Of a DNA stretch of 64,000 nt, positions 4,767 through 42,868 are shown piece by piece. Each line of letters starts with the position of its first letter. The stretch's first letter is position 1. The stretch comes from Eretmocerus hayati. Taxonomy: Eukaryota > Arthropoda > Insecta > Hymenoptera > Aphelinidae. The notes under the pieces are model-generated. The model made no database searches, was not told where the DNA came from, and saw nothing but the letters and a program-made list of their open reading frames with translations. The stretch lies in the NCBI GenBank assembly GCA_029851415.1, contig CM056744.1, forward strand, positions 56,879,797 to 56,943,796, read 5' to 3'. A program made the position numbers and the translations under genes.

Positions 4767-5008
4767 TGTGATGATCGACTAGGATCATCTTTTATGGGAA
4801 CATGTGCACGAATAAGGGCTGATTTTTCCCTTAGGAGACGGTAAATAGGCCCTTGCCATACAGATGTTTTACCAAGGACGAGCTCTTCCCTTTTTCCATT
4901 ATCTTCAAATTTTTTTGCTCAACAGCCAAAAGCCGATGAACCTTGCGTATGACCACGGAATAAACAATCCTCCAAATTGAAGAGTGTGTGTGTGTGTGTG
5001 TGTGTGTA

Positions 5009-5450
5009 ATAAGAGTGTTAGTGTGTAAACTTCATTTTAGGAGGCAACTTGTTATTTGATATCCATTATTGACACCGTTTCTCTGAGTATAATGGAATAA
5101 GAAGGCGTACGTGCTCTCGCCAAAGAAACTACAGCCTTGAATCCACTCCCGATGAATGAGACCAGAGAATAAATAGATTAATCAAGCGTCAAATTGTTAA
5201 GCTACCGGTGGTGGGTTATGTTAGTGTGTAAACTTCAATGCAGGAGGCAGGTATCGTATGTGTACCTTCAGCCAATTTTTGAATTACGCATCTCCGAGTA
5301 TAATAGAATAAGAAGGCGTACGTGCTCTCATCAAAGAAGCTAAAGCCTTGAATCTTCACCAGATAGATGAGATCAATAAGCAAATACATTCATCGAGTGT
5401 GAAGTTGTTAGTTTTCCTAGACTATCGGTGGTGGATTACCTTTGTTCTCA
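5009..5450 (+). repeat. Internal ~210-bp duplication within U3
   Basis: Two copies share GTTAGTGTGTAAACTTCA, AATAAGAAGGCGTACGTGCT and a GGTGGTGG..TTA end. The shared GAGTATAAT starts fall at about 5085 and 5296. The same duplication is present in the 3' LTR, so it predates this insertion. Such U3 duplications often hold enhancer sites, but no function is shown here. Confidence 0.75.
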
Positions 5451-5825
5451 ATACGTACGATCATCAAGAATATGTAAATGAGTACAATGAGTACCAGAAA
5501 CTCATGAGTACCTCATAGATCCGAATTGAGAATATTATATATATGTTTGTGTGTGTATGTGTGTATTTAGAATCACAAAATAGGCGAACTTTTGTTAAAA
5601 GTCAGTGAGTCGAATCTGTGTGAGTCCTTTGAATCCGCTGGCGTAGGCCTTGACAATTCCGCCCTCATGAATTATATTTATGACGTGTCGAATTATGCGG
5701 AATTGAACGACCAATCAGCAACTTTCCCTGCCAAAAATCGAGTCGAAGATTGGGTGTAAGAAGGCCCGCAGTCTTTGCTCGGGGCTTCTTTTTCTTCCCG
5801 GTACACTAAGTATAAGCATTAAGGA

Positions 5826-5930
5826 TATAAGATACCAGTTTTATTCTTGTTCCGTTATCACGAGCTCCTCGAATTCACGTCATTATTTCTTGGATCATCC
5901 GAACTCACCTGTACGATCTGACTGAATAAA
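5826..5930 (+). promoter_or_regulatory. LTR core promoter and polyadenylation signal
   Basis: TATAAGATA at about 5826 lies some 100 nt before AATAAA at 5925-5930, so R is probably short, starting near 5856. The 3' LTR equivalents are a TATAAAATA site near 42526 and AATAAA at 42628-42633. The exact start site is inferred. Confidence 0.5.
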
Positions 5931-6166
5931 ACTACAAGTAGGTAAGCCAAACTTCTGACTCCATGGAATCTATTTGATATCCCCTTGCCCTGATATTTAA
6001 CTTAGTAGAATCTAAAATATCATAACACTTGAGAGAAAATCACAAGCAATAATCGTCCCAGGGTCATTAGCGTTTCGGACTCCAGACCCTAAATTCAAAC
6101 AAAATAGGTAGTCCGTACTACCAAAGAAGGAGAGGCCCTTCTATGAACACCTTTCGCTCTCAACAT

Positions 6167-6182
6167 TGGAGGCCCCGGAGGG
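6167..6182 (+). other. Candidate primer-binding site
   Basis: TGGAGGCCCCGGAGGG begins two bases after the 5' LTR terminal CA. Its reverse complement ends in CCA, as a tRNA 3' end must. I do not assign the tRNA identity. Confidence 0.7.
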
Positions 6183-6278
6183 ATAATTATTGTTTTGTCT
6201 TCTCTCAAAAGTGTGCGGATAGAAGAGAAATCAAAAAAAAATCTGAAACATAAAACCTCCCGCCCTATACTCGAAACA

Positions 6279-6365: not shown

Positions 6366-7298
6366 ATGAACCTCAGAAAGAACCAATCATTCGTCCTTAA
6401 TCTCGCCATTTCGATGGTCCCCTTCTACGACGGACGAAATTTGTCAGTAGATGAATTCATAGACGAACTAGATCTGGCACATTCGATCATCGAGCCACAA
6501 ATGGAATCAGTTTTTCTTAGATTCGTAAAAACCAAGCTATTCGGCAAAGCTCGGGAGTACATGAAATTTTCAGAGTCAGATGAGTATTCGGCATTCAAGA
6601 TAACACTCTATGACGCTTTCAGATCTTACGAAACCATCCCACTATTATTCGGAAAATTAGGAAGTGCTGTCCAAAATGATGATGAATCCATTATACGTTT
6701 CGCGAATCGAGTCAGTAAAATTGGACGTCAAATAGTCAACGTAGCCCATTGTGAGGGCAAAAACCCCGTCATTCTCGAGGAATTGGTTGAACAAACTATG
6801 ATAGACACGTTTCTTAGGGGTCTTGAAACGGATTTATCCATTTATTTTGATAAAAAACCTGACCGAATCAATGAAGCGGTTTCGCTGGTACATGAAATCA
6901 TTAGAGGATATAGGTCAAGACAAGAGCCGGAACAGATTTCACAAGTCACCGATTATGAATTGAGTAAAAATATCAAAGAAGCCTCGGCGTCGGAAACTAT
7001 CCGTCGAGACGAACCGCTGGTCGATACCTTTTCCGATGATAAAATTTGTAAGACAGATCGCAAAACGTTCCCATTCTTGCTCTTGCTGCTCATTCTCGTG
7101 CGCAACTCATTGGGAAAATCATGGACCTGTGTGACGCAGAAGTTTTGCAATAATTTGTTGGCTAGAACAATCTCTTATGAAACCGTGTCTGCCCCTTCTA
7201 GGGGAAAAAAGACCCATCTTATGTCCGCTCACAAGAGGGGCCATCTCAGAAATATTACTAAATTTATGTTGTATTTGAAATTCCCAGGAAAACCGTAG
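6366..7298 (+). CDS. gag: Truncated errantivirus-like Gag (first gag copy)
   Basis: The 310-residue frame starts at an ATG 184 nt after the PBS. Residues about 15-200 read like a gypsy/errantivirus Gag capsid region: VPFYDGRNLSVDEFI near the start, then LFGKAREYM, a helical stretch and TMIDTFLRGL. The same order of blocks occurs in the second gag at 31.9 kb (VPDFNGSNIPLSQFL ... ECVKRGL), so I infer homology. After residue ~210 the text loses similarity and no zinc knuckle or pol follows. It is therefore a 3'-truncated gag, or an accessory gag duplicate. It lies in the normal gag place behind LTR and PBS, about 25 kb from the main gag-pol. Confidence 0.75.
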   Translation: MNLRKNQSFVLNLAISMVPFYDGRNLSVDEFIDELDLAHSIIEPQMESVFLRFVKTKLFGKAREYMKFSESDEYSAFKITLYDAFRSYETIPLLFGKLGSAVQNDDESIIRFANRVSKIGRQIVNVAHCEGKNPVILEELVEQTMIDTFLRGLETDLSIYFDKKPDRINEAVSLVHEIIRGYRSRQEPEQISQVTDYELSKNIKEASASETIRRDEPLVDTFSDDKICKTDRKTFPFLLLLLILVRNSLGKSWTCVTQKFCNNLLARTISYETVSAPSRGKKTHLMSAHKRGHLRNITKFMLYLKFPGKP

Positions 7299-17580: not shown

Positions 17581-18618
17581 TTTCGGGGCGTACTACCGCA
17601 GAATTGCAAGGAAAATCGCCGGTCAATCAGAAGGTTATGCGAAAAATATGGGAACCTATTCCACCACGAGCGTACAAGGGAAAGCTCGGTATCAGGAGTA
17701 TGGATCAGAAGTGAGGAGGTACCCTTCAAGCAAACCCCCGGAAGCTTGTACGACCTTCTGGATAACATGGGGAGCGTCACGATATTTGATATGAAAGATC
17801 AAGCGAAATTAGCATCAACCCACGACCAATGCATAAAAAAGATAGGAACTGGTCTCGTCAATCCCATGTATGGGATGAATCTGCAATTGAATGAAACTTG
17901 TTATTTGAATAACATACCGTTCTTGATAACGCCCGAACAGAATAACAAGATCAGCCCGGAAGATCCCATGATAGGAATCAATCGCCTCACCAAATATATA
18001 GGATCACCATTTTCCTACACACCCTTCCACTGGGAAGATGGTGGGTGTGACAGCGTAAATATGGTGACGGAAGGTTTCGAACCCGATGCCAAGCTGTGGA
18101 TGTTTATCAGGAACGCGGATAATGACCCGATCCAGAAGAAATATACTCAGAACACCAGGACCATGATTAGGGAGGGAGATTTTCCAGATGAATCAATATT
18201 ACCAGGATGTCCATGGCCCGATTGTCATGAAATCTTCTTGCGGACTCATGAGTATGTGTCCAAGACTAAAGCACGCACAGAGTTTTTGGTGCAACAGGTC
18301 GGGGACGTTGTCTATGTAGCACCCCACGTGCTCCTTCAAGTGATTAACCTCTCTACAAATTATGCAGAAGCCGTCAACGTCGGGAGTTCTAGGTGGCTAG
18401 AAGGTAATCAAGGCTTCGTAAAATGTGAGTGTCCCGGCTGTGCAATCGTCAACATCTATCGGCCAGCGAACATTTATGGGCGCGTTCAGTTATATTATAA
18501 AGAAACCTATACCTGCCGCGAAGATGGATGCGGTAATGAGTATCACACTGCCGAAGCCCTTAGAAACCATCTCCTCCACCACACCTGGAGCAACCTCGAG
18601 CAAGCAAAGCTCCGCTAG
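17581..18618 (+). pseudogene. JmjC-domain protein with C2H2 finger, N-terminal part
   Basis: The frame is open from an acceptor-like TTTCCAG at 17580 to a TAG at 18616-18618. A JmjC double-stranded beta-helix is visible. Counting from the TTG codon at 17746, TPFHWEDGGCDSVNM (His95, Glu97) is the HxE iron pair in a KDM4-like setting. GDVVYVAPHVLLQVINLS (residues 186-203) is the distal strand pair, followed by NYAEAVNVGS. The distal iron-binding His expected there reads Leu (LLQ at 196-198), so catalysis is doubtful. A C2H2 finger follows (Cys257, Cys262, His275, His279). Family members demethylate histone lysines or hydroxylate proteins in the nucleus. After the TAG the same frame continues as a zinc-finger tail. 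The true N terminus is unknown. Confidence 0.75.
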
Positions 18619-19326
18619 CCCGATCTGGACAACCTCTTGCCCGATCCCAAGCCTGCTCTGTTTGGGGAGATCCGAGAATCCTCCAACTACTGTCAAAAGC
18701 TTATGGGTAGTCCCTCGCATTCCGAGTTCCAAGAAAAATCCAGCTCGCACAGCCCGGACGCCGTGTCGCACTACCCAGACCTCAAAAATCACAATACTAG
18801 TCTTGTACAACCAAGCGAAAGGTCAACCTCAGACCCAGGCCTGACTCCGAGTCCCAGCGACCCTACTGGAGTCGGATTGAGCGAAATCAATGGTATCATG
18901 GAGGAAGCGGATAGAGAAATAGGAGTAGTGCACACCATCGCAAGTCAACCTCACCTTGGCCCAGTCACCACTGTATACGTCCCAACGGAAAATCACGTCT
19001 CCACAAATCAGGGTAAATACGTAATTAAGGGTCCCGCTGTAGCCCCACCGTCTTCTCGTTTCCCCTATTCTAAACCTGGCTGCCCACGATGTGGTTACGC
19101 AGGAGAACAACTCAACCGCCACCTTAGGAAATGCAAGGATCTGACCTGCCCCAAGTGTAAGAAAGTACAGTCCAAATACAGTTATACTAGGCATGTAAGC
19201 ACTTGCGGAAAAGATCCCGATATCCAGAGATTGCTGGGAAATAATGCCCGTCTCGCAGCAAAATTTGCCTCGGAAAATTTCACAACGCAGCAAAAACAGA
19301 CAAAAGATAATCTATCTGGGAAATAA
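18619..19326 (+). pseudogene. Zinc-finger C-terminal part of the JmjC gene
   Basis: This is in the same frame as the JmjC part, beyond the single TAG. A Ser/Pro-rich low-complexity linker (about 18640-18850) and an acidic stretch lead to two C2HC-type fingers near 19078-19210: CPRCGYAGEQLNRHLRKC and CPKCKKVQSKYSYTRHVSTC. A basic, Gln/Lys-rich tail ends at TAA 19324-19326. The combination suggests a nucleic-acid-binding module attached to the JmjC domain. The TAG could be a nonsense mutation or a readthrough point. There is no intron signal between the two halves. Confidence 0.65.
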
Positions 19327-26640: not shown

Positions 26641-26739
26641 AAATTGTGTGGAATGAATCAATAAAACCTTGAAATGTGAATCTTGTTCCTGTTCTACCCT
26701 TCATATAAATACCGAACTCCCTTCAAAACCACCTTTCAG

Positions 26740-28846: not shown

Positions 28847-30001
28847 TTTCCTTCTATCCAGCACCGAGAAAAGGTACATGAGATTCACCGATGAGATCGG
28901 CTCCCCATGAGGGCAATCCGAATGCCGGACTCAAATACATGTTTCTCTTTTTCTAATTATCTCCATCTTCACTAAATAGAGGATTTTTGCGTGAAATCAG
29001 ATTCCGAGCTCTAGTCTACCTAATAATGATTGATGGCGATTATTCTGTATTGCTCTTCAGGAAATTTTACGGATTTTGAGTCTAATAAACAAGTCATTGG
29101 AAATATTGGCCCCAAGTCAAAAGATCAAGATGGCCTAAGAATCCGCAGAACATCATTAAGCTTTGATAATCCTCGCCAATATTTTCCCGACCCGTACCTT
29201 TGTGAACCATTTAGTTTGAAAGGTCTATTGAAGTTTCCTCATTTTTATCTTAGCAAACATTTTTCTGTACAGTACCCCTGATCGTTTTTTCCTGAAGCAA
29301 TCACCAATAATCTTTTTCACAGTACTAGATGGTTCTGTCGGATGGGTCTCAATGTATGTAATCAATAAGAGACTAGTTACTAATCAATTTTACTAAAACG
29401 AAAATAGTCACCGCGAAATCCACTCTCGTAGCCAATATTGAGTTCATTAATTAATCAATTATCATGGGTCTTTTACTATGGAAGATGATGGAGTATCCCC
29501 AAATATTTTCGTTTGATATCAGAGAAAACATTCACAATGTCCATTAATATAGTCTCCGGGATAATATCATGATGACATGATGTGGGGCCAAAGGTCTGGG
29601 ATGCTGATAACGGTAAGATTACATTGTCCAATGTCTCTCTCTCCAGAAGAAAAATAACGTACGCATATGAATATCCTTTGTATGAGTGAAAACCTACGCG
29701 AATCCCATCCCTACGCAGCAAAGTAAACATTTCATATTCCTCGTTCCTCCCGCAGAAACAAAGGAAAGGCTATACAACTACCGACACGATCAGTCAAGAA
29801 TCCAGGTGGTCTACGGCTTCGTCCATTCCTTTTGTACCTCCGTTCTATGTGAAGTCGTGACCAATCAGACTCCGTTAAAATTAATTGTGTAAAACACTAC
29901 ACATATAGAATTTCTCCAAGAGCGAACTTTTTCTTTCTGTAGTTTGTCGCTACCATTCCTGTGCAACTTGCTCACGAAACAGATGGGATGTAGAATCATT
30001 T
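28847..30001. other. Gene-free stretch before the accessory ORF row
   Basis: There are two modest frames (29030-29281 plus; 29476-29730 minus) without motifs. No LTR, PBS or clear TATA promoter is visible immediately upstream of the ORF row at 30002. If the row is virus-expressed it would depend on splicing or on the distant 5' LTR. Confidence 0.35.
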
Positions 30002-30283
30002 ATGTTAACCGCCAGGGAAAAGAGAAGATTCTATAGAACCATCTCGAAAATCCGTAAATTACTGGATGATCCTGTGTTACAATATTTCATTTCCTCTGAA
30101 CCTTTTCTTACCGTTCATAACCGACAGACCTTAAACAATTTACCTACTCAGACGGTGACAGAACAGCTCCAGGAGAACTTTGGGCCCCCTCACGCAAGTG
30201 ATTACGAATCACATACGTCATCTAGTGACGACGAATTACCCGACTCAGCCCGGGATTCAGGAGCTCCTGATACGGACGCGTGA
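30002..30283 (+). CDS. Accessory ORF A1, unknown function
   Basis: 93 residues from an ATG. The N terminus is basic and helical (REKRRFYRTISKIRKLLDDP), followed by FISSEPFLTVHNRQTLNNLP and a Ser/Asp/Glu-rich acidic tail. The first ~45 residues are paralogous to ORF A2 nine bases downstream, with the same spacing of the SEPFL..HN..TLNNLPT block, so this is a tandem duplication within the element. No database family is recognised. It heads a row of five closely spaced same-strand ORFs leading into gag, as accessory genes do in complex viruses. Confidence 0.65.
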   Translation: MLTAREKRRFYRTISKIRKLLDDPVLQYFISSEPFLTVHNRQTLNNLPTQTVTEQLQENFGPPHASDYESHTSSSDDELPDSARDSGAPDTDA

Positions 30284-30346
30284 AAATAGATCTTGGAAGG
30301 ACAATCAGGCCTTGGGATAGAATACGTCCCATGGCAAGGCGCACAC

Positions 30347-30922
30347 ATGAGGAAAATAACGAGACGCGAAAGACTTAGACATTCCATTTGTAAGATTAGG
30401 AGATTTCTGAACGATCCTGAAATTCAAGAAATCATCTTTTCCGAGCCCTTCCTTAAGGTCCACAATCAAAGTACCCTGAATAATTTACCCACCGTATTAT
30501 CCGTAAATATTAAGGGAACGAAAACATTGCGTAATCGTAGCAGCACGGAATCCTCCCAAAGCTCACATCCTCGAAGCAACGCCCACCACGAGATTGCAGC
30601 TGAGTCATCACAAATCTCTGATAGTGAACACTCTGTAGAAACCAACGAACCTCTCTCCTCAGGAGAAAACTTCGCAATTCCAAGCTTCGAAGAAATCCTG
30701 CAATCTCCAAGAAGATATTTCACTACAATTTCCGGTTACAAGCGATACCTCGCCTTTCACGGTTTCGACTCTACCCAATCATTCCCAGGGACTAACCTCA
30801 CCTTCCTCGGGAACGATCCGTGGTCATCAACTCCCGTGGGGAGGATTTTAGAAGACGAATACATAGCTAACAACCTTCGACTCTATCTCTGTAATCCAGA
30901 ACTCTTCAAAGTTCGCGATTAA
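30347..30922 (+). CDS. Accessory ORF A2, longer paralogue of A1
   Basis: The frame is open from 30293; the first in-frame ATG is 30347, giving 191 residues. The N terminus (RRERLRHSICKIRRFLNDP, then SEPFLKVHNQSTLNNLPT) matches A1. A Ser-rich acidic middle (about residues 60-115) and a unique C-terminal domain follow, with FEEILQSPRRYFTTISGYKR and a hydrophobic core up to CNPELFKVRD. The stop is 9 bp before ORF B. A1 and A2 suggest an ancestral gene duplicated, with A1 losing the C-terminal domain. Confidence 0.65.
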   Translation: MRKITRRERLRHSICKIRRFLNDPEIQEIIFSEPFLKVHNQSTLNNLPTVLSVNIKGTKTLRNRSSTESSQSSHPRSNAHHEIAAESSQISDSEHSVETNEPLSSGENFAIPSFEEILQSPRRYFTTISGYKRYLAFHGFDSTQSFPGTNLTFLGNDPWSSTPVGRILEDEYIANNLRLYLCNPELFKVRD

Positions 30923-30931
30923 CAATCCTGT

Positions 30932-31270
30932 ATGACCTATCGTAGCCACCAATACATATCTCAGCCAGATTGGCTCAATACAATATCGGTAGAGGACGCG
31001 ATTTGTGTTAGGAAACGTGAAAATTTACCCACCTTCTTCAGGCATAAAAGAACAAGGAAAAACTACTGCACAAATTGTTACTGGGCTAAAAGAGGCTCTC
31101 TATCCTACCATCCTAAGAAATATTGCAGGATCAGCAGATTGCACGGCTGTGCCCGGACAAAATTGAGACCTTTGCGGTGTCATATGTGTCGAATCCATCT
31201 AGTTACTTCTAGACCTGCATCACGGTGCACTCAGTGCATGGAATTGATCATAATCACCCAAATAGCCTGA
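30932..31270 (+). CDS. Accessory ORF B, Cys/Arg-rich, possible zinc-binding protein
   Basis: 112 residues from an ATG 9 bp after A2. It is very basic, with clustered cysteines: CTNCYWAKRG, a later single Cys pair around KKYCRISRLHGC, then CHMCRIHL and CTQCMEL. Four CxxC-type pairs suggest one or two zinc ribbons that might bind RNA. No family is recognised. Position and strand tie it to the row of accessory ORFs. Confidence 0.6.
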   Translation: MTYRSHQYISQPDWLNTISVEDAICVRKRENLPTFFRHKRTRKNYCTNCYWAKRGSLSYHPKKYCRISRLHGCARTKLRPLRCHMCRIHLVTSRPASRCTQCMELIIITQIA

Positions 31271-31306
31271 TCACAACAGCATTGTTGCGGGGTTTGATGA
31301 ATTCGA

Positions 31307-31477
31307 ATGACTGACATAACTGGACGATATCATAGAAGGTCAGGTCCAAAAACCAAGCCGGAATCTAACGAGAGACCAGATCCCCGACTAGTGTTGGGAA
31401 TTCTGCGAAGACTTCTGGCAGCATTCAACCTGAACAGGCCCTTCGTCTACGTAGACGACTTGAACGTTCAACCATAA
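31307..31477 (+). CDS. Accessory ORF C, 56 residues
   Basis: ATG at 31307, stop TAA at 31475-31477, immediately followed by the gag ATG at 31478 (TAAATG), an arrangement compatible with termination-reinitiation. The product has a basic N terminus (RYHRRSGPKTKPESNERPD) and an amphipathic helix (RLVLGILRRLLAAFNL). It is too short for assignment. The exact abutment to gag makes chance less likely. Confidence 0.45.
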   Translation: MTDITGRYHRRSGPKTKPESNERPDPRLVLGILRRLLAAFNLNRPFVYVDDLNVQP

Positions 31478-33138
31478 ATGCCTAACGATAGGCCCTTGAC
31501 CCGCAGTCAAACACAAAAAACGAAGGCTCCGAAATTCAGGTCCCGAATCAGATAACCTCATTCAGTAGAATACCAGAAGGATCAAACCCCTGGTACCAGG
31601 AGACCCTGCGTAAAACGGATAAAACAAAGGAACCAGGTGACCAGAGCGGAAACGCAAGAAATACAGATCCATTTGCGACTCGCAGCCACCTTCATCACTC
31701 TTCAGAGACAACCTCTACCTCGGTATTCGAAGACCCAAAAGAAGGCGATATTTATTCATCTACCCTGCTAGGTCAAGACGAACTAGGGGGAACCCAGATA
31801 GCTGCATCTAGGTCCCCAAGGTTATCTCCGGTACAGTCGCCTAAGGAGTCAGAGAAAGAGTCAACGAGTAATTCATCACGACAGTCTGAGAACATGCAAT
31901 CCTCAGAAGAAGAAGAAGAAGCCACCATTGCACCGCAGCCAGTCCCTCTTAAAGATGCCTTGAAGGTCGTTCCCGACTTTAATGGGTCGAACATTCCACT
32001 TAGTCAATTTCTTGAGAGAATTTCTGAGGCGGGAAAGATGATTGATGAGGCAGCCGAAAGCAACCTCACCAAATTGTTAAGATCGAAAGTATGCGGTGAA
32101 ACAAGACAAGCCATCTTCGGAGAATCTTTCTCGTCACTCGAAGAGTTCAAAGATTTCCTAAAAAGCATTCACGCCCCTGCAAAAACAGCTCACCAGTTGA
32201 TGGGAGAACTGGGACGGGAATATCAGGAAGAAATCAAAAGCGTGGTGTCTTTCACCAATCGGATGCGTGACCTATGCAACCGGATTAAGGAAGCTAAGAA
32301 AACCGAGACTGGTACAAAAGATGCAGTCTTTGAAACCGCCACGGATCAGAACACATTAGAATGCGTCAAGCGCGGATTAAAACCCGAAATTGGACAGAGA
32401 ATCACATCGATGACCAGCCTAAACGCGTTAATTAAGAACGCCATCAGTGTTGAAAGACAACTGGAGGCCCGGAAAGCACTAAGAGACGATGTAAAACTTC
32501 CCGTTGAGCCTTCTCCTACCAGAAACCCACGCAAGAACATCCACGCATGCTTCCTTTGCGATAGCGAAGACCATGTTGTTGCGGACTGTCCTAAAAGGAC
32601 CAGGCCAAAACAGTGCGATTACTGTGGAGAGATGGGCCACCTAGTGGACACCTGTTTCGAGAAGGTCGAGTACGAAGCCAAGACTCATCGAAAATGCCAA
32701 CTGTGTGGTCAAGAAGGACACATCGCTGTAAATTGCCCATCCCGCGCTAAGTGTCAGTTATGTGAGAAGGTAGGCCACCAAGCGGAGAATTGCCCATCCG
32801 AAGCCTCTACCAGTCCTGAGCCACCTAAGCCCACGAGCACATGCCAATTCTGTAACAAGACAGGCCACACCGCAGACCGGTGTTGGGCTCTGCGAAAACA
32901 ACTGGGACAGTGGAATCAAGCTACCACACCGAGCAAACCCCCGATAATCTGTAACATTTGTAGACAACCAGGGCACATCAGCATCAATTGTCCTGCCACG
33001 CAGAAAGCACTCCCACGCAACTCGGATATTATTTGCCACTATTGTAAGAAACCCGGGCATATGATAGCGGAGTGTCGAAAAAGAGCTTATAACAGGAATC
33101 AGGGAAATGGCCCGAGTCTCCCAAACACGAGCGGGTAG
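31478..33138 (+). CDS. gag: Gag polyprotein with seven zinc knuckles (second gag)
   Basis: An ATG at 31478 starts a frame that is shifted by one base near 31545-31560 into the main frame, which is open to TAG 33136-33138 (first in-frame ATG 31894, 414 residues). A Ser/acidic N-terminal region precedes a capsid-like helical domain (VPDFNGSNIPLSQFLERIS to QRITSMTSLNALIKNAI). Then come seven CCHC knuckles, all C-x2-C-x4-H-x4-C: CFLC..H..C at about 32548, followed by those starting CDYC, CQLC, CQLC, CQFC, CNIC and CHYC, to about 33080. Gag assembles particles and the knuckles bind the RNA genome. One to three knuckles are usual in this group, so seven is exceptional. The slippery site near the 3' end joins it to protease 1. 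Confidence 0.85.
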
Positions 33139-33146
33139 AGGGAGAC
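33102..33146 (+). promoter_or_regulatory. Programmed -1 frameshift signal at the gag/pro junction
   Basis: GGGAAAT at 33102-33108 is an X-XXY-YYZ slippery heptamer in the correct gag phase (CAG GGA AAT). After a 7-nt spacer, GTCTCCC (33116-33122) can pair with GGGAGAC (33140-33146). CCCG (33111-33114) could also pair with CGGG (33132-33135), the strand order of an H-type pseudoknot. The -1 frame is open from here through protease 1, and the gag stop lies 28 nt after the heptamer. Confidence 0.75.
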
Positions 33147-33611
33147 GAAACCAGAAACACGCCCGCAGGAACCAACCAGATTGAATGTCCTCCTTGGAGA
33201 ATTATTACCTGCAGTTTAGATCACGCTAGGGAATATTCTCCCCACGTCAGCACGAAATTTGCATCAAAAGGGAAACCTTATAGATTTCTCCTGGACAGTG
33301 GAGCAGAAGCAAGCATCGTGAAACTCCACGTCATAAAAGACCTAGGATTCATCAATGAAAGAACGCGTCATGTTCTCAAAGGATTGGGATCTCAAACTAC
33401 GCGCTCTTTCGGGACCATGAGGATACTAATCCTGGGGGTAGCATCAGAACTGATCGTAGTACCCGACGCATTTCCTTTACAGTATGACGGCGCCTTTGGC
33501 ACCGATTTCTTCCTCCGGAACAAGGCTCGGCTCGATTTTTATAAAAAAACAATTGCAGATAGACGAAAAAACGTTCAATTCTCATTTTGGAGGCACCAGT
33601 GGCCGCGATAA
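33108..33611 (+). CDS. pro: Retroviral-type aspartic protease 1 (-1 frame)
   Basis: The frame is one base behind gag, entered at the slippery site, and ends TAA 33609-33611. It carries FLLDSGAEASIVK (about 33285-33323) with the catalytic Asp of a retropepsin, and the second half GAFGTDFFLRNKARLDF that closes these domains. The protease cleaves Gag and Pol in the particle as a homodimer. At an A7 run (about 33542-33548) the sense moves to the frame of protease 2, so either an indel or a second recoding event separates the two. A second complete protease domain follows. Confidence 0.8.
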   Translation, partial: WPESPKHERVEGDETRNTPAGTNQIECPPWRIITCSLDHAREYSPHVSTKFASKGKPYRFLLDSGAEASIVKLHVIKDLGFINERTRHVLKGLGSQTTRSFGTMRILILGVASELIVVPDAFPLQYDGAFGTDFFLRNKARLDFYKKTIADRRKNVQFSFWRHQWPR

Positions 33612-34611
33612 AATCCCGCGAATAAACGGAATTAATACCCTCGGGTATGGAAAACGCCTCCCCTTCCTGGAGGTATCGGGCTATGCAGCTTTCACAGGTG
33701 GATACTTTTTGTTGGACTCTGGAGCCGAAGTTAACATCATCAGGGAAGGCTTAATTAGAGACCCCAAGCTGGTTGATACCACTAAAAAGATAGAAATACA
33801 GGGCATTGGTAAGGGTCTCATTTCTACCCAAGGAACCATCACACTCACCATAATAACCGGAACTTCCACATTCCACGTCGTACCTGATGACCTACAACTC
33901 CCCGGCGAAGGGATTCTGGGAGCCCAGTATTTGTCGGAAGCACTCGGAGTCATTGACTATGAAACCGGATGTCTCTCCATCTCGGGATTCGAAGAGAAAA
34001 TAATTCTCGAACCTGCTCGAACCTTCCTACCTGAACGAAAGGACATCGCTCAGGAGGACAAAGACATCCTAGAGGACTTTGAGAATTCTTTTGGAGATCT
34101 ATATATGGCGGAATATGAAGAATCCAATAGAACATGCCGAAAATGTTTATTAGGGGAGGGCGATGGTTCAGAATGTAACTACATGACTCATGAAGACTAT
34201 GGAGTCGCTCCCCAGCCTATAATAGAAGAAGTTAAAATTTATGATATAAATCGGACCAGACTAAGAGATATGCTTCACCTAGACCACCTCGAAGGCGAAG
34301 AAAGAGACTTTGTGTTACGGATCGCTGAAGAAAATCGGGATATCTTCTATCTCCCTGGGAATGACTTACCAGGAACGAGACTAGTGACCCACGAGATCCC
34401 TACTACTACTGACGAACCCATCAACGCACACCAATATAAATTCCCTCACGCGTATAAAGCGGAGATTGACCGCCAAGTCCAAGCGCTCCTAGCCCAAGGA
34501 ATTATTAGGCCATCAACGTCCCCTTACAACATGCCGCTTTGGCTGGTGAAAAAGGAACTAGACTCACAAGGAAACCTGAGATGGCGAATGGTACTGGACT
34601 TTCGCCCATGA
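33484..34611 (+). CDS. pol: Pol part 1: second aspartic protease and RT N terminus
   Basis: Same frame as gag. After a linker (FGGTSGRDKIPRINGINTLG) comes another full retropepsin: FLLDSGAEVNIIREG near 33708-33752, then GIGKGLISTQGTITLTI, and the closing GILGAQYLSEALGVIDYE. An acidic spacer leads to the start of the RT (IIRPSTSPYNMPLWLVKK, then WRMVLDFRP). A TGA at 34609-34611 interrupts the RT inside its conserved N-terminal region, with the same frame continuing directly after it. Two proteases in one Pol are unusual, and loss of one would be tolerated. The TGA makes this copy non-functional unless read through. Confidence 0.82.
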   Translation: MTAPLAPISSSGTRLGSIFIKKQLQIDEKTFNSHFGGTSGRDKIPRINGINTLGYGKRLPFLEVSGYAAFTGGYFLLDSGAEVNIIREGLIRDPKLVDTTKKIEIQGIGKGLISTQGTITLTIITGTSTFHVVPDDLQLPGEGILGAQYLSEALGVIDYETGCLSISGFEEKIILEPARTFLPERKDIAQEDKDILEDFENSFGDLYMAEYEESNRTCRKCLLGEGDGSECNYMTHEDYGVAPQPIIEEVKIYDINRTRLRDMLHLDHLEGEERDFVLRIAEENRDIFYLPGNDLPGTRLVTHEIPTTTDEPINAHQYKFPHAYKAEIDRQVQALLAQGIIRPSTSPYNMPLWLVKKELDSQGNLRWRMVLDFRP

Positions 34612-37365
34612 GATGAAGTTACAATAGGGGATGCCTTACCCATGCCCAACATAACTGAGATTTTCGACCAGGTGGGCGGAGCTAAGTACTATACAGTGCT
34701 TGACTTGGCCCAAGCATTTTTCCAAGTGCACATGGCGGATAAGGATGCTCCGAAAACGGCGTTTTCAACCTCGTATGGGCACTGGGAGTACGCACGTATG
34801 CCCTTCGACTCGAAAAATGCTCCAGCGACCTTTCAGCGACTTATGAACACGGTGCTAAAAAGGCTACAAGGGAAAATTCTCTTTGTCTACCTCGACGACA
34901 TTGTGGTATTCGCAAACAGCTTGGAGGAAATGGACTACAAGCTGAATATACTGTTTACTCGGCTAAGAGAAGCCGGACTAAAATTGCAGGTCGACAAGTG
35001 CGAGTTCTTGAAGCGGGAAGTTATCTATTTAAGACATATCCTGAGTGAGAAAGGATTGCAGCCGGACCCCAAAAAGGTTCAGGCTGTCCGGGAATTTCCC
35101 AGGCCAAAAACGGTCCGAAACGTTCGATCTTTTCTTGGCCTCGCTGGGTACTACAGGCATTCTATTAGAGACTTTGCAAAGATAGCGAAACCCCTCACCA
35201 AACTGTTGCAGAAAGATGTAGAATTCCAATGGGACGACAAGGCTCAAATTGCCTTTGAAACGTTACGAGAAGCGTTATGCACCGCCCCGGTGTTACACTT
35301 CCCTGCGCTGGATCAGGACTACATCATTACGACCGATGCGAGCCGGATTGCGGTAGGCGGAATTCTTTCACAAGGTGAAGTCAATAAGGACTGGCCCATT
35401 GCTTATACCTCGAGAGTACTCCGTCCCACGGAAGTGTTATACGAAGAATACGAACTAGAAGCACTGGCCATGATTCACAGCGTTAAATGCTTCAGATCAT
35501 ACGTATATGGCCGAAAAATTACTTTTGTGACAGACCACCAACCTCTCACCTGGTTCAAAACGGCCGATCTCAATACCAGGGTACAAAGATGGAGGTTTCA
35601 GCTGTCGGAATACTCGTATGAAATCGTTTATAAGTCAGGAAAGACTAACGTTGCCGCTGACGCTTTGTCTAGGAACCCAGTCGAAGATTCATCCATCAAC
35701 ATCGCCACCAGGGCGCTAGCCAAACACCAAAATCACGAAAAAACAGATAATTCATTTCGCGAAGTGTCCGATGTTCCAGAACTTCCTGAAGAAAACGAGA
35801 TTCCGTTATCTCCGCCCCTAGATGAAGTTAACACACGCTGTCCCGAGACTCAGATAATTGACGAACCACAGAAACTGGCGACCCCTCGCCCAACCAAAGA
35901 CGAACCAGGAGAGGAACAAACACGGGTTGATGATGTCAACCAACAAGGAGGATCAAGCCAACTACGCACATATCGAAGGAAGATGATTGAGATTAAGGAC
36001 GCGATACAAAATCGCGATAGTAATATAGTTCACTTCATAGCCAGCGACGGGACTCCGTGTGATGAGGGAGCTCGCCAGCTTCTCGAAAAGAACAAAATGA
36101 TACCCAGTGTGAACGTAGGAGTAAGAGAAGTCCAACAGATACCCTGCAAGTCCGCGGGATACAACTTTGCGCTATGCATGAAGGACACAGCCCCGGCTAC
36201 CTTAACCGCAGTACGAGAGGATGTTTACGCATCTCTCATGACCCTAGGTGCACTATTGAAGGAATTGAAGATCAAAGAGATAAATATTGGCAAGAGTAAG
36301 GAAATAGAGAACCTGCCTTGGTCGGAAGTTATAAGCCTCCTAGATTTAATGCTCAAAGAGAGCAATGTGAAAGTTCTCATCTGCACCGGCACCTTGGAAT
36401 ACATATGTGTAGATCGCAGGGATGCCATATTCCACAAGCTTCATGTATCACCTATTGGAGGCCATCGAGGCATTTCGAAGACGTATAATCGGATTGAAAA
36501 CAAATATTATTGGGAAGGCCTGAAGGAAGACATACGTCGACGTATCCAGCAATGTATAAATTGCCAATTGAGAAAGCTGGTTCGACTCAAAACCAAACAG
36601 CCAATGGTTATTACCGACACACCTGGAACAGTATTCGATAAAATCGCTATGGACATAGCGGGCCCCCTGCTCAAAACAAATAACGGGGATGAGTATATCT
36701 TCAACATACAAGATCAACTTTCTAAATACTGTATGGCTATTCCCTTAGCAGATACGTTAGCATCCACTGTCACCGATGCATTTATTAAAAGATTTATATG
36801 CGTGTTTGGAGCTCCAAAACGCATACTAACTGATCAGGGCCGCAATTTCGTAAGCAAGTTATTAGCTAGAATTGCGAAACGATTCCGTATCAGGCGCATT
36901 ACCACTAGCGCATATTGCCCTTCTTCTAATGGATCTTTAGAACGATCGCATCATGCCCTTGGAGAGTTTCTAAAACAATACGCAGACGCTGACACTAACT
37001 GGGACGAATGGGTCGATTTAGCAAGCCTCAATTACAATTCCTGTGTGCATTCAAGTACTTGCCACACCCCTTACGAGGTTGTATTTGGACGATTAGCCCG
37101 ATTTCCATCCACTGAACCGTTACGCGAACCAGATCTCGAACCCACCTACAAAGGATATATCATAGACCTTGTATCTCGACTCACCGGGATACAACAATTA
37201 ACATACGAGACTCTCGTAGCCTCTAAGGAAAAATCTAAAGAGTACTACGACCGTCGCCTTAACCCAAATTCAAAACCGGTGATTACGTGTACCTATTGGT
37301 CGGACCAAAACCCGGAAAGTTCGGAGACCACTATACAGGCCCCCACAAAGTCCTCGAAATTCTAG
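34612..37365 (+). CDS. pol: Pol part 2: RT, RNase H, macro-like linker, integrase
   Basis: RT: VLDLAQAFFQVHM, the MPFDSKNAPATFQRLM block (usual Gly-Leu replaced by Asp-Ser) and the catalytic YLDD at 34888-34899. RNase H: TTDASRIAVGG near 35331, TDHQPLTW, then AADALSRNP. A ~220-residue linker contains NIVHFIASDGTPCDEGARQL and downstream alpha/beta text like the macro-type domain seen in some insect gypsy Pols. Integrase: HHCC finger HVSPIGGHRG..CINCQLRK (36445-36580) and the DDE triad in MDIAGPL (about 36650), TDQGRNF (36830-36850) and NGSLERSH (about 36935). Near 37274 one base appears lost, so this frame ends early at 37365 and the natural C terminus lies in the next frame. Confidence 0.9.
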   Translation, partial: DEVTIGDALPMPNITEIFDQVGGAKYYTVLDLAQAFFQVHMADKDAPKTAFSTSYGHWEYARMPFDSKNAPATFQRLMNTVLKRLQGKILFVYLDDIVVFANSLEEMDYKLNILFTRLREAGLKLQVDKCEFLKREVIYLRHILSEKGLQPDPKKVQAVREFPRPKTVRNVRSFLGLAGYYRHSIRDFAKIAKPLTKLLQKDVEFQWDDKAQIAFETLREALCTAPVLHFPALDQDYIITTDASRIAVGGILSQGEVNKDWPIAYTSRVLRPTEVLYEEYELEALAMIHSVKCFRSYVYGRKITFVTDHQPLTWFKTADLNTRVQRWRFQLSEYSYEIVYKSGKTNVAADALSRNPVEDSSINIATRALAKHQNHEKTDNSFREVSDVPELPEENEIPLSPPLDEVNTRCPETQIIDEPQKLATPRPTKDEPGEEQTRVDDVNQQGGSSQLRTYRRKMIEIKDAIQNRDSNIVHFIASDGTPCDEGARQLLEKNKMIPSVNVGVREVQQIPCKSAGYNFALCMKDTAPATLTAVREDVYASLMTLGALLKELKIKEINIGKSKEIENLPWSEVISLLDLMLKESNVKVLICTGTLEYICVDRRDAIFHKLHVSPIGGHRGISKTYNRIENKYYWEGLKEDIRRRIQQCINCQLRKLVRLKTKQPMVITDTPGTVFDKIAMDIAGPLLKTNNGDEYIFNIQDQLSKYCMAIPLADTLASTVTDAFIKRFICVFGAPKRILTDQGRNFVSKLLARIAKRFRIRRITTSAYCPSSNGSLERSHHALGEFLKQYADADTNWDEWVDLASLNYNSCVHSSTCHTPYEVVFGRLARFPSTEPLREPDLEPTYKGYIIDLVSRLTGIQQLTYETLVASKEKSKEYYDRRLNPNSKPVITCTYWSDQNPESSETTIQAPTKSSKF

Positions 37366-37502
37366 AGAAACATAACGTTCGAATCCAAACAAAAAAAGCT
37401 AGTAAGGTTGTACACTCCAACAAACTACGCATATCCCACATTGTACCGAAAATACCTGAAAATAAAGCGGTAGGAACGATAAAGACGAAAAACAAAAACT
37501 GA
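37287..37502 (+). CDS. pol: Pol C terminus in shifted frame
   Basis: This is the integrase C-terminal tail: YLLVGPKPGKFGDHYTGPHK is the GPY/F-like module, followed by VVHSNKLRISHIVPK. It overlaps the end of the previous frame and is offset by one base, so a single-base deletion near the run CAAAACC at about 37272-37278 explains the break. The stop lies 27 nt before the first env ATG. Confidence 0.8.
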   Translation: MYLLVGPKPGKFGDHYTGPHKVLEILEKHNVRIQTKKASKVVHSNKLRISHIVPKIPENKAVGTIKTKNKN

Positions 37503-37515
37503 TCATCATCGAATA

Positions 37516-37532
37516 TTTCTTACAGGAAAATG
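37516..37532 (+). promoter_or_regulatory. Splice acceptor for the first env gene
   Basis: TATTTCTTACAG ends at 37525, five bases before the env ATG at 37530-37532. Errantivirus env genes are made from a spliced subgenomic RNA. The donor may be AG/GTAAGC in U5 at 5942, but that is inferred. Confidence 0.6.
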
Positions 37533-39138
37533 CTGGCAGCCTGGTTGATCTTCTACCGGCTAGCCGTGACTCTTGCCCAAACCCAAATTATCCCCATCGA
37601 TCAAACTCGAGAATTAGACTTCCAATTAAATCATAGGACATGTAAGAGACATTATAGGTCATTGGCGCGGTGAAGTGGTACTCCCGCTAAACCGATTTTC
37701 CCAAGAACCACCTGAACTTCTAACATTCAGAAACCTACTGAGTTAATTATGTACGACCCTTCATCCACTTTGTGGCCTTTACGACTCTGAGATAACCGAA
37801 CTACGAGGTCTTTTTGATTCCACCAACCGCATGCAAAAAGAGATGGAGACAATTCTTGACAATAACAAAAGGAGGTGGAAGAGATCACCAGCCATCATTC
37901 CTGACCCATTTCCAGACGCGCACAGCTACATCGCTGGTTCAACCATGACCATAACTGGTTCCCTTGAAAGATTAATGCATGACCACTCTTACGGGAAATT
38001 TCGTGAAATTGTTTTCAAGGGAATACAAGCGTCCTTGAATGCTTCAGAATCGTTTCGAGATATCAATTTTCGGTTACTCGACGCACTCCAAGCAGCAAGA
38101 AAAAAACAAACCAGTGAAAATTTATTAAACAATATGGCTTGCCAAATTATCCTACCTCAGGCCAAACTCGATTCTCAAGAGGATTCATGCGCTCCTTTGA
38201 AACGCCTTGCCCAGACAATCAACTCTTCCAATGAGACGCATTTACATGTCTCCATCACTGTTACGATTTATGGGAATCATGCTCACACCCTTTTCAGTGC
38301 CGGACTAACTCCAAAATCGCGGGTAGAGACCGAGATTCGAGGGTATCGGGAAATTATAGCAATCGATTGTCAGTCGATCGGCCACCACTTCCTTGATAAT
38401 CGGAATGACTGTACTGCCTACAACAATCAGACCTACTGTTTTGAATACCCCATATTAATGAACACCTCTTGTGAATATCAACTCGCTCGACATCATCCCG
38501 AACGACCGCTCGATTTTTGTAGAGCAAGATTTCCGAACAACCCTCATTCCGTAGAAAAGAATATACGTCTATGGGTACTTTCTGCCCCCAACTTCACTAA
38601 GATCACCGTGCGATGTAAACAAAATCTCAAAACCATTACCAGCTTCGTTGGAACCGGAATTCTCGAGATTGATAGAGAATGTTCCATCTACCCTTCAGAG
38701 TCACGGCTAGACCCCACGGGTAACATACAAAAATTCCCTATGGCGTTCTGTCCAAACTTAGAAATAGCCAGAAACCCGACTACACCCATTATCAAGCTTC
38801 CTTACGAGTGTCCTCAAGAATGCCTATCTAGAACAAAATATCTCGTTTACTTTGGTATTATCACGTGTCTGGCAATAATAGCTACTGCCACAACCACATG
38901 GTACTTGAAAAACCAAAATCAAAATGCTAAGCCAACAATCATAGTTTTGACTCCGGCAATACTGGAAAAAGCGTGCGAGCAACGATTCACAAACCGGCGC
39001 TCACACTTATATAATCAAAACCTATATGAATCGATCCCTGTAAACAAAAACTCTACGGAAGAGTCAACCCGGATTCACCTCCTTGAATCCAGAGACACCC
39101 CAAGAGGAAATAACAATATCCAAACCCTAACGACATAA
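37530..39138 (+). pseudogene. env: Envelope 1: errantivirus Env-like glycoprotein, N terminus broken
   Basis: ATG 37530 opens a signal peptide (MLAAWLIFYRLAVTLAQ); that frame stops at 37671-37673. The remaining reading is in another frame with a further stop near 37742, then is open as 435 codons from 37831 to 39138. It holds a basic furin-type site RRWKR (about 37870-37884), a long ectodomain with many Cys and N-glycosylation sites (NAS, NSS, NET, NTS, NFT), and one transmembrane segment near 38845-38905 (YLVYFGIITCLAIIATATTTW) with a ~75-residue tail. The layout matches the baculovirus-F-like Env of errantiviruses, a membrane-fusion protein. At least one frameshift and one stop disable this copy. 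Confidence 0.7.
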
Positions 39139-39196: not shown

Positions 39197-39214
39197 AAAC
39201 TGTTACAGACAATG
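39197..39214 (+). promoter_or_regulatory. Splice acceptor for the second env gene
   Basis: CTGTTACAG ends at 39208, four bases before ATG 39212-39214, repeating the TTACAG-just-before-ATG arrangement of the first env. Confidence 0.5.
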
Positions 39215-41314
39215 ACGACCTCGAACGGCCTGAGAGTAATGATTCTAGTTTGGGCAATACGCCGAACGGAAAGTCTGATTGGTTATGATTGCGGATCACG
39301 GTCACTCAACGTCACAACCTCGTCCCTGCTAGACGTAGATGAATGCGGCAAACCAGTGAATTCCGTGGAGGTCACCAGCCGGTATATCCAGCTGTTACAG
39401 ATCAACGAATTTCGGGAAACTACTGTTATACAATGCAAAGTAGAGATCTCCCGCACGGTACAGCGATGCGGAATGTTCAGCCATAACTCCGCTGTATCGG
39501 GCGGAAGCTCAAGCGGATATGTATATGAGGTTAACGCTCAAACGTGTATGGATATGCATAGGACCGGAACTTTAGCATTCTCCGGAAGTCAAATTATACG
39601 CGGACTCAAAATCAATGGAATACCAAATACCTTCCCGGTACTCTTGGCTGGTTATGTAGATAAAGAAGGGCACTGTGGGGGAAGCGGATATGCCGACCCT
39701 TACGGGTCCTGGACCAACGTATTTGTTCAAGGAACCATCTCAATAACATTAACCAGTCAAATCGCGAATATCGAAGTCGCCAAAAACCGGATAGTGCTGA
39801 AGTCCGGGCAAGTATGTACTCTAACTGATGGGTCATGTGTGGATATGGCCGGAGGACAGACTTATTGGCGGCCGTTGCCTGTAGATTCCTGTAGATTTAA
39901 ACGATACGGCGTTCTTTATGAAGGTATTGCAAGGAAAATGGTGGATAATCAAATGAGAGACGCAGAGACAGTGTATTCTGTACAAAATTCCGAAACCCTA
40001 TTTGCTTTAACCGCAAAGGCCACTGAAAGTGTATGCGGATATACTGTCATACGTACGGAGCATCCGAGGCTAGTCATTTGCGAAACACGACAAGGTGAAA
40101 ATTTTGCAGACCAGAACGCTACAACCCCATTAAATATGGACATGTTCGCGTATGTCAACTCCAAATTCATATATGTAGAAAAATGGATTAGAGTTCAATT
40201 CAGTACCCTATACCGGGATGTTCTCGTCAATAGATGTAACCTAGAACGTCAAATCATCCGGAATGCTTTATCTATAGCTGTTCAGTCCCCGGACGAGTTC
40301 GCATATAACCTGATGAAAGGACCAGGTTATATGGCTTTGGTCGCTGGTGAAGTCGTACATCTCATAAAATGTATCCCCATCAAAGTCCGTATTGAACACG
40401 GAGAAACATGTTATACTGAGTTGCAGGTCAGTCATAATAACTAAACTTTCTTCCTGCAGCCGAAAACTCACGTACTGAAGAAGAAAGGAACCCAGATCTC
40501 TTGTAACACCTTGCTACCCGCTTACTATTTTGTAGGCGACCAATGGTATAAAATCACGCCTCGGCCGTCAGAAGCCAAAGCCCCGGCAAAGATAAAGCCT
40601 ATGACCAAAAATACTTGGGAATACATGAGTCCCGAAGAGCTAGCTACTTCAGGTATATACACTAGTGAAGATCTCAACAGCTTGAGGGAACGTATCATGT
40701 TTCCTCTAGAGAGCCAAGGCCATCTCAACGATGTCGCTAGGGAAATGCATGGTGGAACAGCCACAAGCTCCCAAAGTACCCTCATCAAACTGATGAATGA
40801 AGATGTGGTATCCAAACTGGCAGCCTCTACCTGGGACAAGATCTGGGAACGTTTCATGAGTTTCGGCACGGCCAGCGCCGGATTCATAGCCATTTTCTTC
40901 ATAATTCACATTTTTAAAACCTTCCTAGATATCCTTATAAGAGGATACACCTTGCACACCGTCTTGGGATGGTCTTTCCACCTTCTGGGAGCCGTTTGGA
41001 GTTCCCTTTCCCACTGCCTATCAGTGGCATGTAGGAAAGCGCCATATTCCAGACCCGAAGGGTGCCCGGAGGAAGGAGAGTCTCTAGGGTACTTGAAGAA
41101 TAGTGAAATATTTCAAGAACCGCTAGATGGTTCTCCTCCTGAGCAAGAAAACGTCAACACTTTTCGGTTTGAGAAAGCTGATACTTCACCGAAAACGCCG
41201 GTACCTTGCCGAGCGACAGGTATCAGCACACTCGACCCCAATCTTGCCACACCCTCTTCTTCCAGGAAAGTAAACATATCCGATCCTTCTCCCCTCCCAC
41301 ACCGCAAGCAATAG
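39212..41314 (+). pseudogene. Envelope 2: Chuviridae-like glycoprotein, one in-frame stop
   Basis: About 700 codons in one frame, interrupted only by TAA at 40442-40444. The signal-like N terminus is followed by IGYDCG and LLDVDECG, then a Cys-rich ectodomain with GHCGGSGYADPYGSW, VCTLTDGSCVD and TYWRPLPVDSC. The segment after the stop has CNTLLPAYYFVGDQWY, a WEYMSPEELATSGIY block and the membrane anchor ASAGFIAIFFIIHIFKTF near 40870-40925, then a second hydrophobic stretch and a long cytoplasmic tail. The order and Cys pattern resemble glycoproteins of Chuviridae (Jingchuvirales), which are known to be captured by arthropod LTR elements. It starts 73 bp after envelope 1, so both belong to the same unit. 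The expected role is receptor binding and fusion. Confidence 0.72.
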
Positions 41315-41464
41315 TAAAAATTTCATTATCCTGATCCACGCTGCTCCTCTTTCCATGTACTATTCACCAGTTGAACATAAACTAGATTCGATGGACTGGC
41401 CAGCATAGAGTACCGTGAGTAGCACTTCGTTCTTAGTTGACTTGTCAACCATAACGAAGTGTTT

Positions 41465-41475
41465 AAGGGGTGGGG
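41465..41475 (+). other. Polypurine tract
   Basis: AAGGGGTGGGG, purine except for one T, ends exactly where the 3' LTR begins (TGTGATG at 41476). It is the expected plus-strand primer site. Confidence 0.8.
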
Positions 41476-42868
41476 TGTGATGATCGACTAGGATCATCTT
41501 TTATGGGAACATGTGCACGAATAAGGGCTGATTTTTCCCTTAGGAGACGGTAAATAGGCCCTTGCCATGCAGATGTTCCACCAAGGACGAGCTCTTCCCT
41601 TTTTCCATTATCTTCAAATTTTCTTGCTCAACAGCCAAAAGCCGATGAACCTTGCGTATAACCACGGAATAAACAATCCTCCAAATTGAAGAGTGTGTGT
41701 GAGTGTGTGTGATAAGAGTGTTAGTGTGTAAACTTCATTTTAGGAGGCAACTTGTTATTTGATATCCATTATTGACACCATATTTCTGAGTATAATGGAA
41801 TAAAAAGGCGTACGTGCTCTCGCCAAAGAAACTACAGCCTTGAATCTACTCCCGATAAATGAGACCAGAGAATAAATAGATTAATCAAGAGTGAAATTGT
41901 TAAGCTACCGGTGGTGGGTTATGTTAGTTTGTAAACTTCAATGCAGGAGGCAGGTACCGTATGTGTACCTTCAGCCAATTTTTGAATCACGCATCTCCGA
42001 GTATAATAGAATAAGAAGGCGTACGTGCTCTCATCAAAGAGGCTAAAGCCTTGAATCTTCACCAGATAGATGAGATCAATGAGCAAATACATTAATCAAG
42101 TGTGAAGTTGTTAGTTTTCCTAGACTATCGGTGGTGGATTACCTTCGTTCTCAATACGTACGATCATCAAGAATATGTAAATGAGTACAATGAGTACCAG
42201 AAACTCATGAGTACCTCATAGATCCAAATTGAGAATATTATATATATGTTTGTGTGTGTATGTGTGTATTTAGAATCACAGAATAGGCGAACTTTTGTTA
42301 AAAGTCAGTGAATCGGATCTGTGTGAGTTCTTTGTATCCACTGGCGTAGGCCTTGACAATTCCGCCCTCATGAATTATATTCATGACGTTTCGAATCATG
42401 CGGAATTGAACGACCAATCAGCAACTTTCCTCGCCAAAAAACGAGTCGAAGATTGGGTATAAGAAGGCCCGCAGTCTTTGCTCGGGGCTTCTTTTTCTTC
42501 CCGGTACACTAAGTATAAGTATTAAGGATATAAAATACCAGTTTTATTCTTGTTCCGTTATCACGAGCTCCTCGAATTCACGTCATTATTTATTGGATCA
42601 TCCGAACTCACCTGTACGATCTGACTGAATAAAACTACAAGTAGGTAAGCCAAACTTCTGACTCCATGGGATCTATTTGATATCCCCTTGCCCTGATATT
42701 TAACTTAGTAGAATCTAAAATATCATAACTTTTGAGAGAGAATCACAAGCAATAATCGTCCCAGGGTTATCAAAGTTTCGGACTCGAGACCCTAAATTCA
42801 AACAAAATAGGTAGTCCGTACTAACAAAGAAGGAGAGGCCCTTCTATGAACACCTTTCACTCTCAACA
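41476..42868 (+). repeat. 3' long terminal repeat
   Basis: 1,393 bp matching 4767-6165 and carrying the same internal duplication. It has TATAAGA at 42458-42464 (GTGTAAGA in the 5' copy) and AATAAA at 42628-42633. It ends CTCAACA, and the flank begins ATGCG. This copy looks promoter-competent and could drive transcription outward into 42.9 kb and beyond. Confidence 0.92.

Follow-up and report, generated by a model that had tools for sequence, protein, structure and literature searches.

A Ty3/gypsy-type element family of Eretmocerus hayati with an F-type envelope gene and a chuvirus-type glycoprotein gene in tandem

The 64,000-nucleotide stretch of the Eretmocerus hayati genome analysed here (contig CM056744.1, positions 56,879,797 to 56,943,796; hereafter the window) contains a long terminal repeat (LTR) element of Ty3/gypsy type in which pol is followed by two envelope genes, an F-type env and the gene of a chuvirus-type glycoprotein (GP). 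The GP start codon lies at position 39212, 73 bp behind the env stop (39136-39138) and in another frame than Env, and the gene ends at 41314. The initial annotation had proposed a glycoprotein of about 700 codons at this location, with a YDC motif near its start and a SAG membrane anchor. Position, ends and both motifs were found as described, whereas the continuous frame was not: an in-frame TAA at 40442-40444 divides the GP of the window into two open pieces. A short intron spanning this stop, suggested by a local GT...AG, was rejected because other copies keep the spacing of the pieces and several are open across the site. When scanned separately, the two pieces match consecutive parts of the PF24664 (Monjiviricetes_fusion) profile, 9-406 (E 2e-144) and 431-609 (E 4.9e-56), and the protein is therefore a member of the Monjiviricetes/Chuviridae glycoprotein family. 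The predicted structure corresponds to a class III fusion protein, the closest solved folds being herpesvirus gB, with rhabdovirus G also among the matches, at a TM score of only about 0.3. Comparison with PDB sequences gave no match (best E 0.8). Homologues were retrieved from Hymenoptera and from the Hymenopteran chu-related virus OKIAV146 (44% identity over 84%), which together with the profile and the gB-like predicted fold bears out the proposed chuvirus type. The gene belongs neither to an exogenous chuvirus nor to a simple endogenous chuvirus insertion, as it is located inside a retroelement.

The env gene of the window begins at 37530 and its first fifth is broken by stops and frame breaks, whereas the frame is open in sister copies (528-546 aa; loci of the genome are designated L009, L010 and so on). 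The window Env piece has no Pfam match. The Baculo_F family (PF12259) is detected below its curated cut-off in the closest copies (L009, 4e-5; L012, 0.008) and above it in relatives of the same family (L019, 1.4e-7; L026, 9.4e-18; L047, 4.5e-21; L023, 4.5e-20). The assignment to the errantivirus F-type proteins is thus made through the relatives L019, L023, L026, L045, L047 and L054, all above the curated cut-off. The Env proteins of L009 and L019 share 35.5% identity across 518 residues, and a profile built from six copies matches the solved 'fusion protein' 9w4d (6e-14). These results agree with the errantivirus-like Env assumed initially. The same profile also matches a flagellar hook protein (1.6e-5), probably through a coiled coil. 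Homologue searches with Env, one of them scoring a limited list of candidates, returned only two proteins, both from E. hayati.

The distribution of the two genes was then followed through the genome. The 100 best scored GP hits, from a search in which 100 of 369 first-look candidates were scored, are referred to below as the listed GPs. Counts of pairing concern hits and not copies, one copy being split into two hits. A pair was recorded when an Env hit in the same orientation was present at most 8 kb upstream of GP, and 300 random placements were used for comparison. From the 22 best GP hits other than the window, 20 loci were retrieved, each with an Env match in front of its GP, and an upstream Env hit accompanies the remaining two as well. 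Identity of the upstream Env to that of the window is 70-93% for near copies and 20-33% for the rest, and the gap between the two genes is mostly about 60 bp among the closest copies. With the window Env as query, 48 of the listed GPs were found with an Env upstream, against a random mean of 0.05 and a maximum of 1. The Env of L054, employed as second query, added six (54 of 100), and the upstream Env of L049 was recognised by sequence, beyond the query hits. By GP identity, the first query detected an Env upstream of 17/17 listed GPs at 88% or more, 15/16 at 63-87%, 16/26 at 55-62% and 0/41 below. The window Env itself gives 65 hits, 54 of them with a listed GP behind; the 11 others include three of the L054 kind, one (L055) followed by a frame-broken GP and one (L056) showing no GP in the 1 kb covered behind it. 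Both genes are open and full length in 5 of the 20 fetched copies (L009, L012, L019, L023 and L026), and three of these (L009, L019 and L023) also have a pol that is open as far as it is visible. According to the initial annotation, a consistent lack of the second gene in other copies would have refuted the proposal; the pair was instead present in all 20 of the near copies fetched, and the pairing of Env and GP is a trait of the family. Pattern scans of IMG/VR returned no relative.

The boundaries of the element were obtained by aligning its LTRs, which are about 1.4 kb long and 95.9% identical over 1402 columns. The element extends from 4767 to 42868 (38,102 bp, later insertions included), whereas errantiviruses and insect endogenous retroviruses (ERVs) usually measure about 7-9 kb. 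LTR searches at 30-46 kb, and at 20-33.5 against 41-55 kb, had found none, the 5' LTR being actually at 4767. The order reverse transcriptase - RNase H - integrase and the gypsy-type domains place the element in Ty3/gypsy (Metaviridae), and no BEL/Pao family was present among matches up to E 1. Paired LTRs, a polypurine tract and a short target duplication are all three found in the sister copy L009, and the window displays the LTRs and the tract. L009 spans 32,055 bp, its 1413-bp LTRs differ by no substitution and two gap columns, and its target duplication is TTTG (4 bp, expected by chance once in 256). Because of these substitution-free LTRs and this duplication, the L009 insertion is judged to be recent. 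The window element is, by its sequence, a dead copy, given the in-frame stop of GP, the stops in env and a pol frame that departs, near its end, from the one seen in other copies. A solo chuvirus insertion beside the env of a dead copy, or elements nested in each other, would fit the broken state of the window and its later insertions. The recurrence of both genes in all 20 near copies at a mostly constant distance in the closest ones, where 0.05 is expected per 100 best hits, and its enclosure in L009 by LTRs and a target duplication make the likelihood of such an accident practically negligible.

Features of the window, with coordinates on the stretch and the evidence for each
Feature	Position	Strand	Evidence
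5' LTR (TGTGATG...CAACA)	4767..6165	+	alignment to 3' LTR
primer-binding-site position behind 5' LTR	6166..6185	+	identical 20 bases in sister copy L009
gag-like open reading frame (ORF), 310 aa, just inside 5' LTR	6366..7298	+	by eye; weak relatives (23-45%)
JmjC ORF, fragment here	17746..18618	+	PF02373, E 1.6e-8, above cut-off
Cys-rich ORF behind JmjC piece	18637..19326	+	sub-threshold zinc-binding matches only; common to L015, L016
UP1, uncharacterised protein, partly duplicated upstream	30293..30922	+	49% in L019
UP2, uncharacterised Cys/His-rich protein	30932..31270	+	94% in L009, 41% in L019, 28% in L023
gag bearing CCHC zinc knuckles (7 stretches)	31894..33138	+	PF00098, 4.8e-24
protease region and start of reverse transcriptase	33484..34611	+	RVP below cut-off, E 0.034; 93% in L009
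reverse transcriptase - RNase H - integrase, Ty3/gypsy domain set	34642..37365	+	RVT_1, RT_RNaseH_2, RT_RNaseH, Integrase_H2C2, rve
possible splice acceptor before env ATG (37530)	37516..37525	+	pyrimidine-rich stretch and matrix score
env, F type, open in pieces only; long piece 37831-39138	37530..39138	+	Baculo_F in relatives
possible splice acceptor before GP ATG	39200..39208	+	weak alone: 41% of background ATGs score equally (L009 site)
GP open piece 1, to in-frame stop	39212..40444	+	PF24664, 2e-144; predicted fold
GP piece 2, membrane anchor and tail	40445..41314	+	PF24664, 4.9e-56 for 40511-41314
polypurine tract adjoining 3' LTR	41464..41475	+	same in L009 and L021
3' LTR	41476..42868	+	alignment to 5' LTR

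Selection on the two genes was measured on natural open frames. The pN/pS values are 0.11, 0.12 and 0.40 for GP (three of three pairs, p at most 3.5e-4) and 0.48, 0.53 and 0.59 (p < 0.005) and 0.75 (p 0.21) for Env, where two of the pairs, both including L009, are not independent; all these values are inflated by decay after insertion. The pattern indicates that both genes are kept by selection, Env weakly. Between L009 and L019, dN amounts to 0.62 for Env, 0.20 for pol and 0.06 for GP. The synonymous difference of the same two copies is 0.54 for GP, 0.80 for pol and 0.72 for Env, pol and env being near saturation. Because this difference is lower in GP than in pol and Env, GP has likely been exchanged between subfamilies. 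At the DNA level, the GP genes of L019 and L020 are 82-84% identical to that of the window and pol 70-72%, and env is not alignable.

More remote relatives were also considered. Among seven distant loci fetched, four carry GP only (L043, L044, L046 and L048), with no more than about 150 bp between the end of a gypsy pol frame and the start of GP and without a match to Env, and three carry both genes (L045, L047 and L049). A second group with two envelopes comprises L045 and L054, whose GPs are 62% identical to each other and 33-41% to that of the window, with 31% for Env. L054 had been considered as an F-only element and was rejected as such, a GP piece being present directly behind its Env. 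In L045, an ankyrin-repeat ORF of 464 aa (L045:512-1903) directly precedes Env. A tree of GP together with 120 public proteins recovers the window's group (eight sequences) as monophyletic (support 1.0), next to Trichogramma kaykai (0.91), L045 being placed elsewhere with weak support. Two GP trees disagree on the nearest outsiders, which are two public proteins in one and T. kaykai in the other. The GP-only elements, the 11 of 17 listed GPs at 40-45% identity for which neither query detected an Env, and the far faster evolution of Env would suit a turnover in which the F-type Env is an old envelope, fading since the capture of GP and contributing little. Such a turnover is considered rather unlikely, as the Env frame stays at 528-546 aa across copies that are about 21-35% identical, three of four Env pairs are constrained and both genes are found in the second, distant group as well.

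The explanation favoured here, with moderate confidence, is a giant Ty3/gypsy ERV-like family with two unrelated envelope proteins encoded in tandem, GP being the main fusogen and the F-type protein a helper. In this scheme, env and GP would each be translated from their own spliced mRNA, and a single particle would bear both proteins, which each have a membrane anchor and a start resembling a signal peptide. GP, of class III and strongly conserved, would perform most of the fusion. The fast-evolving F-type protein, in which motif and hydropathy searches showed neither a conserved furin-type site nor an obvious fusion peptide, would mainly serve for attachment or assistance. On visual inspection, most copies compared show a run rich in pyrimidines and ending in AG before the env and GP starts. 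Scored with a simple custom matrix against 1103 other ATGs from the same loci, the acceptor-like sites yield combined p values of 5e-7 for env (6 loci) and 3e-4 for GP (11 loci), both optimistic since the loci are related.

A number of observations weigh against this explanation, beginning with the optimism of these p values. The top 3% of the background is reached by 4/6 env sites and only 3/11 GP sites, and that of the window's subfamily does not stand out (41%). The structure of Env was predicted at a pLDDT of only 31.5, and the TM score of the GP fold matches is low. The constraint on Env is weak, and its dN/dS in near-identical pairs is 0.89 (L011-L012) and 1.80 (L022-L023), on few changes and with the same inflation by decay. 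Furin-type motifs do occur in Env (RIRR in L047, RPKR in L054, RWKR in the window, RWQR in L009 and L012), at a position which the motif search found not to be conserved across copies, and the Env of the window's group has no clear fusion peptide as judged by hydropathy alone. No matching target duplication flanks the window copy. Finally, the Env of the second group gives 66 hits, only 6 with a listed GP behind; given the scope of the 100 best GPs, F-only elements may be common. The GP of L054 itself is among the unlisted ones.

Two further functions were weighed for the pair. Two independent fusogens could serve different cells, for instance in passage from ovary to oocyte and in spread between hosts; the two protein classes, the possible splice acceptor of each gene, the selection on both and the furin-type motifs of some F-type proteins are compatible with such a dual tropism. 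It is nevertheless held to be distinctly unlikely, as no conserved furin-type site or clear fusion peptide was seen, by motif and hydropathy, in the F-type proteins from the group of the window. One or both proteins might instead exclude competing viruses or elements, as decoy or receptor block and not for entry, an idea put forward for the solo chuvirus glycoproteins of mosquitoes (PMC7642597). Here both genes travel inside a mobile element and nothing supports exclusion specifically, so that it is very improbable. A wider and more tentative picture, with chances slightly short of even, is that of an ERV lineage of about 32 kb, recently active in a living wasp, whose entry apparatus would combine a fusing and an attaching part of different fusion classes, drawn from two unrelated virus groups, and would form one mobile unit with a captured JmjC gene and a second, gag-like gene.

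Retroviruses, like retroelements that carry an env, are generally regarded as relying on a single envelope gene. Comparison with known systems relies on the available portions of the cited papers. Errantiviruses and insect ERVs (PMC12992720) have the same Ty3/gypsy pol, an F-type Env behind pol and a possibly spliced env. The wasp element differs from them by a second envelope behind env, a multi-zinc-knuckle gag accompanied by a gag-like gene, a size of 32-38 kb and a furin-type site that is not conserved. Anakin, a BEL/Pao element of mosquitoes (PMC7642597), shares the chuvirus glycoprotein behind pol and between LTRs; the wasp element is distinguished by its gypsy-type pol, its additional F-type Env and its occurrence in Hymenoptera. 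Chuviridae such as OKIAV146 share the glycoprotein, whereas the wasp GP resides in an LTR element with a reverse transcriptase. Jingchuvirales glycoproteins have been reported near gypsy fragments in Hymenoptera, without a clear gypsy capture in the part of that report available (PMC10084718). By comparison, the wasp GP directly follows gypsy pol or env in many copies, and LTRs and a target duplication are present in the one copy checked, which fills this gap. Gypsy elements with type III fusion glycoproteins are also mentioned in print (PMC13172572); the class III GP is common to both, and the accessible text mentions no element of dual type. No description of two envelope genes in one retroelement was found in the literature covered, which consists of partial texts and does not extend to Chary and Hayashi (eLife 2025). 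The initial suggestion of an undescribed two-envelope element is accordingly retained for the pairing and narrowed otherwise: because PMC13172572 mentions gypsy type III glycoproteins, it is the combination of Env and GP, rather than the occurrence of class III proteins in gypsy elements as such, that looks new. A lineage keeping two envelope classes through long divergence would demonstrate that an entry system of two proteins can evolve in a retrovirus-like element, and the presence of GP-only and dual-envelope relatives in a single genome provides material for testing why two are kept. The size of the element and its JmjC gene broaden the known cargo of such elements.

This cargo is located between the 5' LTR and gag. 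The gag-like ORF, without a family above cut-off, lies about 25 kb before the zinc-knuckle gag. Of its loci at 70% identity or more, 12/14 are followed on the same strand by a listed GP, and some of its weak relatives (23-45%) are upstream of other GP loci. JmjC frames are open at other loci (615-641 aa), and at 10/13 loci with 76% or more a listed GP follows in the same orientation at a distance of 6-31 kb. At one locus with both JmjC and the gag-like ORF (C3:169.1 Mb) the GP is only 56% identical, the other linked loci being of the window's subfamily; no JmjC hit was present near L019, L020, L022 or L023. Many further JmjC hits, more diverged (22-47% identity), exist in the genome. UP1 gave 20 matches (27 of 27 candidates scored), and behind each of the 20 a listed GP follows at no more than 25 kb; it is duplicated in L009 and L019. 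An NCBIfam scan returned noise only.

Window stretches between 7.4 and 31 kb are shared by L009, L010, L011, L013, L015 and L016 in the same order, a 143-bp piece in L016 excepted, and their internal deletions differ. L010, L011, L012, L013, L015 and L016 lack pol through two shared deletions, at about 30121-37122 in four copies and 29784-37462 in two, and the pol-less copies are probably amplified non-autonomous forms that retain the env and GP sequence. The published E. hayati assembly comprises 692.1 Mb in four chromosomes with a scaffold N50 of 192.5 Mb (PMC10482854), and a recent burst of gypsy elements is described in this species (PMC13116730). Later insertions of the window, at approximately 26723-28843 and 24985-26080, are missing from other copies at those sites. 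The inserted sequence includes a piece resembling a long interspersed nuclear element (RVT_1 below cut-off) and a repeat that recurs inverted at 52200-53291. A tandem array with a 110-bp unit in 3.7 copies occupies positions 2324-2729.
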